Shown here in pieces: positions 17,474 through 61,091 of a DNA stretch of 64,000 nt (within the stretch, counting starts at the first letter, position 1; every line of letters begins with the position of its first letter). The position numbers and the translations under genes are program-made. The stretch lies in assembly GCA_021732785.1 (NCBI GenBank), contig JAKFUG010000004.1, positions 1-64,000 on the forward strand, read 5' to 3'. The notes under the pieces were generated by a model. The model did not search any database and had not been told where the DNA came from. It was given only the letters and a program-made list of their open reading frames with translations. The DNA is from Planctomycetaceae bacterium (GTDB lineage: Bacteria > Planctomycetota > Planctomycetia > Planctomycetales > Planctomycetaceae).

Positions 17474-17530
17474 GTGTGCCACTGGCTCTGCCAGTGTCTT
17501 TTGAATGCACTGGCAGAGCTAGTGGCACAC
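17474..17530. repeat. Palindromic repeat family D (copy 2, short spacer)
   Basis: Arms GTGTGCCACTGGCTCTGCCA and complement TGGCAGAGCTAGTGGCACAC with a spacer of only about 16 bases. It lies between the converging nrdJ and dnaB genes. Confidence 0.92.
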
Positions 17531-17537
17531 AAGAGCA

Positions 17538-25043: not shown

Positions 25044-25091
25044 AAGCCGAACTCACATTACAGGTTGAACAACGTAGGCGAGAGCGAAGGA

Positions 25092-30711: not shown

Positions 30712-30953
30712 AGCAGTCTTCTCAAGGGTTCACGGAAGCCGGACGGAGCAAAGTCACGGCATCATATCGGATATCGGACGGCGGACACGCTTTTCCCGCC
30801 TGCAATCCCGAGTATGACGCATCAGCAGCGACTTCTCCATCTTCGCTCCGTAAAATGAACGCGATCATTCTCCATCCGAGACCGCTTTCGCGCTCGTTCT
30901 TCACCTTCGTCCAACCGACGGGATGGATGGGGCAGTTTCAATTCAAAAGAACG

Positions 30954-31025
30954 TCGGGGCAGGGGCCCTGACCTATGATTTCTGATTGATTTTCACATCC
31001 ATAGGTCGGGGCCCCTGCCCCGACT
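30954..31025. repeat. Palindromic repeat family G (full copy)
   Basis: Arms GTCGGGGCAGGGGCCCTGAC and GTCGGGGCCCCTGCCCCGAC around a 30-base spacer containing ATAGGT. It is the main content of the 347-base gap between the oxidoreductase and the secreted protein gene; nothing else is recognisable there. Confidence 0.92.
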
Positions 31026-31058
31026 CTTCAAGCAGATCCACTACGGACGGGAACCACC

Positions 31059-31812: not shown

Positions 31813-31881
31813 GTGTGCCACTGGCTCTGCCAGTGCTGCCTTTTCTGTCTTCAAAAAACACTGGCAGAGCCAGTGGCACAC
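31813..31881. repeat. Palindromic repeat family D (copy 3)
   Basis: Near-perfect arms GTGTGCCACTGGCTCTGCCA and TGGCAGAGCCAGTGGCACAC with a spacer of about 29 bases, between converging genes. Confidence 0.93.
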
Positions 31882-43697: not shown

Positions 43698-43791
43698 CCG
43701 CTTCGCGGTTTCGCGCGTCGCGCGGAATGGTTCCCAGTGAATTCGATGACACTCAGAAACACTTTGCGCGGGGCGCGAAACCGCGAAGCGG
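43698..43791. repeat. Palindromic repeat family H, left copy
   Basis: Arms CCGCTTCGCGGTTTCGCGC and GCGCGAAACCGCGAAGCGG around a 50-base asymmetric centre. It ends 42 bases before the transposase start codon. Confidence 0.9.
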
Positions 43792-43833
43792 AATTGGTAG
43801 ACTTCTTGGAGCAATCCATCTTGGGAGATCATC

Positions 43834-44436
43834 ATGCTGATTGCGCACCACCTGATTTTCACGGCGTACGGGTGGTGGCTTCCCAATGACCCGCGCGGGA
43901 GTCTGTCTCACGACATCCGCGTCGAACGGATCGATGATCTCGGCGATGCTCACTACGGCCGGAAGATGCAGCAACCGTTGTCGAGAGAGATTCGTGACTT
44001 CTACTTCGACGCCGAACACCGCCTGCGGCATCCGTTATTACTCTTCGATGATGACGACATCGCCGTGATTGCTGACGGCATCGCCGAGACGATTCATACG
44101 CAGCACTACACCTGTTATGCCGCCGCGGTGATGCCTGACCATGTCCACCTGGCGATCCGTATCCATCGCGACAAAGCGGAAGAAATGCTCGCCACGTTTC
44201 AGGACACCACGCGGCGACGGTTGTATGCCCACGAGCGACGCACCCCCTCTCATCCCACCTGGGGCGTCCCCGGCTGGAAGGTGTTCATCGATACCGAACG
44301 GCAGTTGCGGGCCACGATTCGGTATATCGAAGAGAATCCCATCAAAGCCCGACGACCGGCACAGAAGTGGGATTTCGTCATGCCGTATGATGGTTGGTTA
44401 CCAGGGTTGCATCCGGATCGTCGAAACAGGAAGTAA
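43834..44436 (+). CDS. REP-associated tyrosine transposase (IS200-like, Y1 family)
   Basis: A 200-residue single-strand-specific transposase of the IS200/RAYT group. The metal-binding HUH motif is PDHVHLAI (H103, H105). The N-terminal LIFTAYGWWLPNDPRGS and C-terminal IRYIEENPIKARRPAQKWDFV are characteristic of this transposase-like family. The catalytic tyrosine is probably Y131 in RRRLYAHE, but that is an inference. RAYTs act on hairpin-forming REP DNA, usually without moving themselves. A GGGA ribosome site precedes the ATG. It lies between the TIR gene and clpB. Confidence 0.88.
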   Translation: MLIAHHLIFTAYGWWLPNDPRGSLSHDIRVERIDDLGDAHYGRKMQQPLSREIRDFYFDAEHRLRHPLLLFDDDDIAVIADGIAETIHTQHYTCYAAAVMPDHVHLAIRIHRDKAEEMLATFQDTTRRRLYAHERRTPSHPTWGVPGWKVFIDTERQLRATIRYIEENPIKARRPAQKWDFVMPYDGWLPGLHPDRRNRK

Positions 44437-44443
44437 ACCCACG

Positions 44444-44536
44444 CCGCTTGCGGTTTCGCGCCCCGCGCCAACTGTTTCTCAGTGTCCCCGAAGACACTGG
44501 GAAGCGATCTGCGCGAGGCGCGAAACCGCACAGCGG
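44444..44536. repeat. Palindromic repeat family H, right copy (inverted)
   Basis: Arms CCGCTTGCGGTTTCGCGCC and GGCGCGAAACCGCACAGCGG with a central GTTTCTCAGTG...CACTGGGAA. It begins 7 bases after the transposase stop and is the reverse orientation of the left copy. Confidence 0.9.
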
Positions 44537-54718: not shown

Positions 54719-54754
54719 AGCCCAGGGAATGCATTCCCTGGGCTGTTTGTTTGT
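54719..54754 (+). terminator. Rho-independent terminator after rpoZ
   Basis: Perfect stem AGCCCAGGGAATG/CATTCCCTGGGCT followed by TGTTTGTTTG. It ends the yicC-gmk-rpoZ transcript. Confidence 0.85.
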
Positions 54755-54843
54755 AGCCCTGTCGCTCCGCGACCGGAAAGCCATCTTAGAGTACAGCGCT
54801 GGTTGCGTTAACGGCGATCCTGTCGCGGAGCGACAGGGCTACG
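54753..54843. repeat. Palindromic repeat family K (copy 1)
   Basis: Arms GTAGCCCTGTCGCTCCGCGA and TCGCGGAGCGACAGGGCTAC around a 47-base spacer. A second copy lies inside a coding sequence at 59337-59425. Confidence 0.93.
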
Positions 54844-57340: not shown

Positions 57341-60300
57341 TCATTGTTCGACGGGTTGTTTCTGCGCTGCTTTGGTGCGGGCTTCGCTTTCGCGCACGCG
57401 GGCCACCAGTTCATCGCGGTGCGAACGGAACGGCCGCAGCAGCATCCGTTCGATCACTTCCTTGCGGCAGGCCCAGTCTTCCGTCGTGTAACCCGCGTCC
57501 ACAGCGAGCGGTGCCATCGTCTCCAGCGCGTGTTCCACGGCGAGCTGGCTTCGCTCCATTTCCTGCAATGTCACCTGGGCCGCTTTCAATGGGCGTTGAT
57601 TCCGGGCTTCCCATCGTCCGCGCAAAGTTTGCAGCAATCCGTTGAGTTCATCGAACCGCTGGGCGGCCGACAATTCGGGATCGGGCAACGTGGTGAGCCG
57701 ATCGATCGCCAGCACGACATTGCGAACCGAAGCATCCTGCGCGGGGGCATAATAGATGGCGTGCAGCCGATGACGGCGTTCTTCACCCGGAAACTTGTCG
57801 CGGCGAGAGAGCAGTTCCGCCAGTTCCTGATGACCGAACAACGACAGCAACGGATCGTGCGGTGCTAACAGAGAATCGAGTGTCTGATACGCCGAGAACT
57901 CGGCATGTTCGTCGCTGGCCAGTTCCCCCAGCGCTTCGAAGTAGGCTTTGCGGCGCGTGTCTTCCGAGTGCCATTTGCCGGCGGAGTCCGCGGTGAATTT
58001 CACCGGTTGAATCGTTGACCGGGGATGATCCTGCAATTGCTCGCGGAGCACCTTGCGATATTCCCACCAATGGGTGTCCGGGTAGTCGCGAACCAGCCGT
58101 TGTTCGCCCATGAACTCGGACAGGCGGCGTAACACTTCCGGGTTCTCGCCCGCCGAACCGAGCCATTCCAGATAACGCCCCTTGCGGGACTGGGTGGTAT
58201 TCGCGATCGGTTGGGGTTCGGCAGATTCCTTTGGCAAGGGGAACCGCGGCGCGGACGTTCGCGGCTTCGACAGTACCGTCGCCGTTTCCTGCAGTTTCGG
58301 ACCCCAGCGCATCATTTCAAAAGGTGTCGAGAACGCGAATCCGGTGTTGTATGCGGAATGGAGACCAACGTGAATTTCCGCCGCGGCTTCTTTCAATGCG
58401 GCACCATCGTAAGCTGGCAGATTCAACGGGTACGACCAATCCCAATTGAGCACGCTGGCCACCGATGCAGCGCGGTTCTCCAACCGGGCTGCCAAATCGT
58501 TGCGAACCAAGACCTCTGGCGAAGCTGCACCCAAGAGCAGATATTCGCCCGCACCGACTTCCAGGCAGGCCGTTTCCGCAAACGCTGCTTGCAATGCCAT
58601 ACACGCCGACAACAACGGACGCGGCCCCAAATCGCCCCCCGAGAAACGCTGGCAGAAGACCCCCTGCGCGGTGAGATGGCGTGCCGCGCGGCGGTAATAC
58701 TCGGCGGTGTAACACACCAGGTTCGCCTGCTGGGCCGCCATTCGCGGTGACGAGACGATGATGTCGTATTGATCCTTATCCGGCAGCGCCAACCATTCCG
58801 CGGGTTGTGCAACCCACCGGCAGCGGTCGGCGAACGGATCGTAACCCGACGCCTTTGCTAACGGTCCTTGAATGAAGCGGATCAATGGTGCATCGGCTTC
58901 ATGACAGACGACTTCACGCACGGGAAACGCCGCACACATTCGCAAGGCGGATCCGCTACCGGCCCCGAGCATCAACACGCGCTCCGGTTGATCGACCAGA
59001 ACTAACGGCCAGAGGGCGGCGGCGGCTTCTGGGGCGAATTGCGGGCACCACGCCGGCGCGAGCGAAATCGCCCCGACGGGGACGCCGTTCTCGCGGAAAT
59101 GCCATTCGCCCCCTTTGTTCTGCCAGACGGTCCAGGCCCCGTTTCGGCCTTCAAAACCGGCGACAAGGCGCGTGTCGTCGAGGCGTTCCAGCAGTCGCGG
59201 CTCCCAGCCACTGCGGTGAGCCAGCACGGCGGTGGTTGAGAACAGCAATCGCGAGGCCCGCGCACTGTTCCAGTCGAGACCGCACTGCCAGACACACAGT
59301 GCTAGCGCCGCGGTCATGCCTCCGACAAGACTCCACGTAGCCCTGTTGCTCCGCGACAGGATCGCCGTTGCCAAAGTGAACTTCCGAGTGAATCGGCTTT
59401 CCTGTCGCGGAGCGACAGGGCGACCTTGTGCGACCGTTCGCTCAACAAGCATCAATGACGCCGCATGGCAAAGTAGTCCGCCAAGGGCCGCGATGGCAAA
59501 CCCGGCGCGGGGTCCGAACTGCGGGGTAATCCACCACAGCGTGACACAGATTCCACAACCGAGGGCGGCACCGCACAACGCGGTCGTTTGTGGGGCGTTG
59601 CGTTTCAGCGCGATGGCATGCCAGGCCGCACAAGCCCCCAGGCTGCCCCACACGAGGAACACCATGCTGGTGCGAAGCGTTTCCCATTGCCACCACGTCG
59701 TGAAGGTCGCGTTCTGCCACAGGACCCAATCCACGGAGACGCGGCTGACGAACAGCAGCAATGTCGCCACGACGGTGACGGCGGCGGTTGCCCACCGGGA
59801 TGTCGCACCGCGGGCAGCAATGTAAGACCCGATCACGGCCCCGAGTACGGTCATCGCCAGACTGAGATTCGTAATGACGGCGGTCACCGGCCAGAGTTCC
59901 GCCTGCCAGGAGGGGACGCAACCGATCGCCAGACCGAGGCACGACGCCGAGCACAACGTCACCCACATCGATGATGCGAATCCGCTGCTGGTGACCGGCG
60001 TGATGGGATCCTGTTCAATGGAAACCCCGTCCCGCACGGTTTGCCACGCACCGATCAGGGCACAGACGACGATGGCCATCACGGCAGGCCACAGGACGCC
60101 GGTATTCGCACCGAAGAAAAGCGTTTGCAGCACGATGCCGACGACGAATGCAATGCCACTCAACAAAGCCCAGCCGTGATCCGTGTGTGCCACTGGCTCC
60201 GCCAGTGTCTTCTCTTGGGCAGTGTGAGCTTTGTGATGAATCGGAAAAACACTGGCAGAGCCAGTGGCACACAGAGAGGAAGGGGAAGCCAGCTTGGTGA

Positions 60301-60703: not shown

Positions 60704-60828
60704 CGCTTCCCTGCCCCCCAAAATTCCGGCGCGCGAATCCGTCCGCGGGCGTCAAGCGAACCTTGTACCGGAATCCACACTTTTTCAGCAAGAGGGGTTC
60801 CGCCATCGGTTGCAGGTCAGTGTGAAGA

Positions 60829-60900
60829 GTCGGGGCAGGGGCCCCGACCTATGGATGGGGAATTCGACCTGAAATCATAGGTCGGGGCCCTTGCCCCGAC
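60829..60900. repeat. Palindromic repeat family G (full copy)
   Basis: Arms GTCGGGGCAGGGGCCCCGAC and GTCGGGGCCCTTGCCCCGAC with a 32-base spacer. It is the only recognisable structure in the 388-base gap between the two divergent genes. Confidence 0.93.
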
Positions 60901-61091
60901 GTCTTTGGATTCATACTGACCCACCACTCCGGCATCGGGAAGTGCTCCCTGTGATTTGATTCTGGGCCGCGTCGCCAGCCGATTCATTTTCCGCGTTTCG
61001 GGCACCGAACCGGCGTGTTAGCATGAATTGCTGAATCGGTTCGTGCAGATTCCCGGCAAACTCCCGCCTCGCAAACAAGGTGCAGCGCGCT

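Follow-up and report, generated by a model that had tools for sequence, protein, structure and literature searches.

The window, by which we mean the whole stretch of 64,000 nucleotides analysed here, carries a long gene (hereafter the host gene) that contains two palindromic repeats, one of family D and one of family K (Table 1). The reading frame stays open through both elements, with no internal stop in 1120 codons, as the preliminary description of this DNA had it, and upstream extension to a TTG at position 60721 would give a product of 1126 residues. The N-terminal part of the protein contains many hydrophobic segments, and a simple hydropathy scan places the D peptide and the K peptide each between such segments; the preliminary description had put one of them between membrane segments. 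Its name for the gene, spermidine-synthase-like, is fair but soft, since the one Spermine_synth match (residues 566-685) scores 19 bits, below the Pfam cut-off of 22.9. The D element was confirmed at its proposed place and is 88 nt long; the K element starts where it had been placed, and in frame, but ends at 59424 instead of 59425. Likewise, of the residue ranges first given for the inserts (144-174 and 425-455), the start of the D peptide stands, but the K peptide begins at residue 427. The two families are unrelated, and both also lie elsewhere in the window, as had been claimed.

Table 1. Features of the window and copies of families D and K inside other genes of the same genome (C-numbers denote contigs of that genome)
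Feature	Position	Strand	Remarks
Host gene, 1120 aa	57341-60703	minus	N-terminal hydrophobic segments; weak C-terminal Spermine_synth match
Family D REPIN-like doublet, 88 nt	60185-60272	minus	In-frame peptide LCATGSASVFPIHHKAHTAQEKTLAEPVAH, residues from 144
Family K (GTAG-type) REPIN-like doublet, 88 nt	59337-59424	minus	In-frame peptide GRPVAPRQESRFTRKFTLATAILSRSNRA, residues from 427
Family D doublet elsewhere in the window	31813-31881
Family D copy elsewhere in the window	17474-17533
Family K doublet elsewhere in the window	54753-54842
D in molybdopterin oxidoreductase	C22
D in Mfd	C9
D in Lhr-type helicase	C42
D in LpxK	C16
D in CoA transferase	C2
D in DUF2079 membrane protein	C5
D in M56 peptidase	C1
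D in protein with sub-threshold YfhO match	C11:118226
D in proteins without named family	C52, C3:95412, C11:164247
K in heparinase-II/III-type protein, 110 nt	C16:26071		Between its two domains

Anatomy, copy number and RAYT linkage of families D and K

The D doublet of the host gene is made up of the half-site GTGTGCCACTGGCTCYGCCAGTG and its inverse, and the K doublet of the half-site GTAGCCCTGTYGCTCCGCGACAGG and its inverse, with GTCG at one end. In the genome to which the window belongs (G000; 6.69 Mb, a draft of 96 contigs), the D half-site occurs 232 times as an exact match and the K half-site 125 times with up to three mismatches, while the reversed-pattern control gave 0 matches for either. 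The terminal GTAG motif of K is present in 66 exact half-sites among the matches listed, with GTCG in some others; D elements start with GTGTGCCACTGG and have GTGTG in place of a GTAG or CGTC tag. As single-stranded DNA, the host-gene doublets are predicted to form stable hairpins, with z scores of -7.61 for D and -7.57 for K and none of 200 shuffled sequences equally stable (DNA parameters, window copies).

Sequence was fetched around 200 of the 232 exact D half-sites (100 of 127 plus 100 of 105) and 100 of the 125 K half-sites, and the fetched stretches merged to 768 kb, in which we called 125 D pairs and 9 D singles as well as 56 K pairs and 7 K singles; three of the pairs in each family are single palindromes of 29 nt. 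In this sequence around the listed copies, D is present as 122 doublets of more than 50 nt versus 12 single sites (the 9 singles together with the three paired calls of 29 nt). The lengths of the D doublets in this genome cluster near 69, 77-78 and 87-88 nt, and these steps of about 8-10 nt could reflect helical phasing.

Both families are linked to genes for REP-associated tyrosine transposases (RAYTs, Y1 transposases), K in the genome of the window and D in a congener. The RAYT gene at C37:50021-50704 has a K doublet on either side and ends in a TAG stop codon that belongs to a K element; at C3:253573, too, K provides the TAG stop codon of the gene next to it. The C37 protein is over the cut-off of PF01797 and scores 50.9 with NF047646, below the cut-off of 80 for that model. 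In the same-genus genome G001, two RAYT genes are bracketed by D half-sites, both exact at locus L290 and one exact and one with two mismatches at L291, and their products score 86.7 and 90.7 bits with NF047646 (cut-off 80). No D-specific RAYT was found in the window's own genome: the best relative of the D-type RAYT of G001 is 33% identical to it, and none of the nine Y1_Tnp matches is adjoined by a D element, the nearest lying about 1.2 kb away on C18. The variant REP found beside the RAYT gene at C2:62342 has one match in the fetched 768 kb.

Copies of the D half-site number 232 in the window's own genome, 24 in G001 and 35 in the sister genome G002, which is 64% complete, and the GTGTG form of D has no site in G003 and G006. 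The K half-site, with up to two mismatches, occurs three times in G002 and has no match in G001, G003 or G006. The high copy numbers of K and of the GTGTG form of D in G000 suggest a recent expansion there. A looser GGTG form of the D core (GGTGCCACTGGC-N-GCCAGTG) is present in 15 of 47 genomes, with 80 sites in G023 and 22 in G004, a genome of another genus; this rules out that D is confined to the genus and places it in a REP group of wider distribution.

Reading frame of the in-gene copies

We judged the coding strand and frame independently for each flank of every element in the fetched 768 kb. Nine of the 134 D elements have both flanks coding in the same frame, none has flanks in different frames and three lie between opposite strands, the others having one coding side (33), neither (88) or a position at a contig edge (1). 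The in-frame bias of D, 9 of 9, has a probability of 5e-5 against an expectation of one third. When 1500 random element-free points in the same sequence were put through this test, 869 were called same-frame and 4 different-frame, indicating that D falls within genes about 9-fold less often than random points do and that the test seldom miscalls the frame. Among 63 K elements, one was called same-frame, three different-frame and four opposite-strand, with one coding side in 29 and neither in 26. The three different-frame K elements (C3:253573, C54:26265 and C66:19206) were rejected as frameshifted insertions, their flanks being tandem genes on either side. At the loci fetched from the related genomes, three of 29 D rows of G002 were same-frame and none different-frame (two elements account for the same-frame rows, that of L270 called once and that of L278 twice), and 0 of 12 D rows of G001 were same-frame.

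The in-frame D elements measure 85, 76, 88 (six times) and 87 nt, and eight of the nine fall in length class 1 modulo 3, compared with 42 of 125 D pairs overall (p = 0.001); as a whole, the D doublets are evenly spread over the three residue classes. The genome-wide check for multiples of three that the preliminary description had proposed therefore came out in its favour, both in the frame kept and in the length class shared.

About a dozen further genes of the window's genome, core enzymes included, likewise have in-frame palindrome inserts (Table 1; genes were named by Pfam, C3:95412 and C11:164247 lying outside the scan). Among the copies listed by place, 12 D copies lie in genes and all are open throughout; an open frame was what led to three of them (C9, C42 and C11:164247). 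The strict two-sided test is not passed by the K element of the host gene, the K element at C16:26071 or the D elements in Mfd, in Lhr and at C11:164247, which are assigned to genes on the strength of an open frame, with homology as further evidence in the cases of Mfd and Lhr. An open frame alone was discarded as proof of a gene, the D element at C2:145334 and the K elements at C2:39593 and C21:58307 failing the two-sided coding test, and the D element at C1:90897, in a short open frame, was dropped as an in-gene copy.

The pairing of D and K that had been claimed for the host gene recurs in a DUF2079 membrane-protein gene (C5:151974-154397), where both lie in one frame of 807 residues, making two such cases in this genome. 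By a rough estimate, with 3 K genes and 12 D copies, coincidence would put both families in a shared gene with a likelihood of about 0.02; membrane proteins that tolerate insertions thus probably accumulate them. As to the frame in which D is read, 8 of 11 in-gene copies of the right length class use the one that gives CATGSAS...LAEPVAH (p = 0.018, weighted by how often each D reading frame is open). This preference is suggestive only, since the open frame was itself the means of finding three of the 12 in-gene copies, and the same frame is the one most often open in non-genic D copies of that length class (52 of 62 readings).

Filled and empty sites in related genomes

A search for the host protein in 79 genomes, its own included, gave matches in 50, and 29 relatives were aligned, of which 25 were usable in the D region and 28 in the K region. 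The peptide motifs of D and K are absent from all 29. The K region (query residues 395-485) spans 91 residues in the host protein, 62 in G001 and 59-67 in 25 of the 28 usable relatives, the exceptions having 81, 85 and 105, and the loop is shorter than that of the host protein in 27 of 28. The D region (118-202) spans 85 residues in the host protein, 61 in G001 and 52-78 in 24 of 25 usable relatives, with one relative at 108, a soft length figure since the membrane part of the protein aligns weakly. The orthologue alignment proposed in the preliminary description thus bore out its expectation, peptides being absent throughout and loops shorter in nearly every relative; against the medians of the relatives, the inserts add about 24 (D) and 28 (K) residues, compared with the roughly 30 apiece first supposed. 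For the host gene there is no empty site at the DNA level, since in G002 only the D insert was matched.

At other sites we counted the residues between fixed anchors in the protein of the window's genome and in a relative, the ends of the insertions being known approximately and not to the base. The counts are 41 versus 5 in G002 for LpxK (+36), 42 versus 6 in both G001 and G003 for Mfd (+36), 56 versus 15 in G001 for Lhr (+41), 40 versus 12 in G050 for the molybdopterin oxidoreductase (+28) and 53 versus 26 in G003 for the CoA transferase (+27). In the DUF2079 protein of C5, the D site has 48 residues versus 21 in G002 (+27; +16 versus G001), and at the K site the protein is longer than that of G002 by only 8 residues. 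The Mfd insert is absent from 14 other genomes, G001 among them, and from G003. In the closest aligned relatives no insert occupies the sites in LpxK, DUF2079, Mfd and Lhr, and the D insertions in the molybdopterin oxidoreductase and the CoA transferase are also present in G002, at the same site and in frame. Between the two genomes, the CoA-transferase insert differs by an internal indel of 9 nt and a flanking one of 3 nt, both multiples of three.

G004 likewise has a long Lhr loop, within which (L234, G004:C116:14461-14482) a D-like palindrome, GGTGCCACTGGCTATGCCAGTG, is read as GATGYASAE, in the frame used by the D element of the window's genome. The loops of G001, G005 and G006 are short, so the G004 palindrome is either a separate insertion or an old one that was lost elsewhere. 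Two different genes of G004, at L225 and L234, encode similar peptides, NREGEAPSEP and NRENEAPAQ, where D sits in the window's genome, and these peptides perhaps reflect a further repeat that is coding. At L263 of G002, near position 1985, a D copy lies near the N-terminus of a frame of 727 residues, whose start codon may be inside the element.

Interpretation and relation to known systems

We read D and K as two unrelated REPIN-like families whose in-gene copies are tolerated when they add whole codons in loops, a reading to which we give a probability of roughly 0.85. Such elements would be short non-autonomous mobile DNAs, each of two inverted REP palindromes and a spacer, moved by single-strand HUH/Y1 transposases of the RAYT type. 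They would insert broadly, and they lie mostly between genes; their half-palindromes are largely free of stop codons, and a copy that adds a multiple of three bases in a tolerant loop (about 30 residues) would leave a working protein, selection purging those in-gene copies that break the frame or burden the protein. Each family would have contributed a single copy to the host gene, the two lying in separate linkers that join hydrophobic segments, and the gene most likely yields a protein with both peptides. The mode of transposition, translation through the inserts and unharmed function are what we infer from the sequences. The suggestion of the preliminary description that these families can be read as tolerated peptide inserts is supported by the nine of nine in-frame D elements and by the peptide-free relatives.

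It is improbable that the inserts act as peptide modules with a function of their own and are retained for an advantage instead of being merely tolerated. The two D insertions in frame in both G000 and G002, the CATGSAS...LAEPVAH frame shared by most in-gene copies and the D-like palindrome in the same Lhr loop and frame in another genus are what such modules would be expected to leave, but four sites are empty in the closest aligned relatives, D is depleted in genes relative to random points and the preferred frame is also the one most often open outside genes. Still less probable is that the inserts are cut out or skipped at the RNA or translation level, by an intron-like process or translational bypass, to give a protein that lacks them. 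The strong hairpins predicted with DNA parameters, and the presence of inserts in Mfd, LpxK and other enzymes that are conserved apart from them, would fit skipping; a skipped element, however, needs neither to keep the frame nor to be free of stops, and the D elements do both, in nine of nine scored cases and in all 12 in-gene copies, respectively, and the CoA-transferase insert has diverged between sister genomes in multiples of three. It is just as improbable that the host gene is a pseudogene in decay or an artefact of assembly, open by luck, for all that its membrane part is poorly conserved, two insertions share it and the genome is in 96 draft contigs: it has no stop in its entire length, coding signal lies on either side of D (0.18 and 0.28), its C-terminal part is 53% identical to that of G001 (residues 462-1112), the K-region excess is close to the size of the K insert and the pattern recurs in about a dozen genes.

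Beyond tolerance of individual copies, it is conceivable, though we think it rather unlikely, that REPINs are a standing supply of ready-made protein segments of about 30 residues in this planctomycete lineage, and that some insertions outlive speciation. The acceptance of CATGSAS...LAEPVAH by LpxK, Mfd and Lhr and the hit on one loop in different genera would then belong together, tolerant genes would gather several families, and some segments may be useful.

Intragenic REPs in frame, and the palindromic elements (RPEs) of Rickettsia, are already known; D and K add to them, with D outside the GTAG and CGTC tags. REP dimers with these tags have been described inside open reading frames, where they encode 20-30 residues, sometimes with two insertions per gene, as in uvrA of O. 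terrae, and their GTAG ends supply stop codons; planctomycete REPs are mentioned in the same work (PMC3733652). D and K resemble these intragenic REPs in that their dimers code in frame and a K end supplies a stop codon, and K has the GTAG motif; D, in contrast, is tagged GTGTG. The text of PMC3733652 considered here is silent on double insertions that mix unrelated families, whereas D and K share a gene twice.

REPINs have been defined as inverted REP pairs with a spacer that form hairpins, doublets outnumbering singles and RAYT genes being flanked by the same REPs (PMC3116915). D is likewise mainly present as inverted, hairpin-forming doublets, and K flanks a RAYT gene in its own genome; unlike the REPINs described in PMC3116915, D flanks RAYT genes in the congener and not in the window's genome, and a small fraction of D lies in genes, in frame. 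RPEs are found in intergenic DNA and also, in frame, within conserved protein-coding genes, and the gmk product with an RPE insert has been reported to be translated and active (PMC2229807). The likeness to RPEs drawn in the preliminary description holds as one of behaviour, in-frame insertion in protein genes, and does not in itself show common descent; the present host belongs to another phylum, and the RPE passages of PMC2229807 assign no RAYT to these elements. The passages of PMC12306157 considered here touch neither on planctomycetes nor on REPs located in genes, and among the titles covered by our literature search none concerned in-frame REP insertion in planctomycetes. The present data add a planctomycete lineage to the known cases of in-frame palindrome insertion, test the frame rule cleanly and tie the elements to RAYTs. 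Sites that are filled in one sister genome and empty in another make it directly testable whether mobile palindromes merely survive in genes or go on to form new segments of proteins.

The window contains other palindromic repeats as well. At 43698-44536, a RAYT-like open reading frame (43801-44436), which scores below the Pfam and NCBIfam cut-offs, is flanked by a different palindrome (I2, I7, I11) in two inverted copies; this is probably another REP family, the third here, together with its transposase. One more palindromic repeat, GTCGGGGCAGGGGCCC-GACC, has four copies in the window (at 25088, 30949, 52633 and 60825); the stretches 30951-31050 and 60803-60902 are inverted copies of this repeat, and the second of these stands a short way upstream of the host gene.
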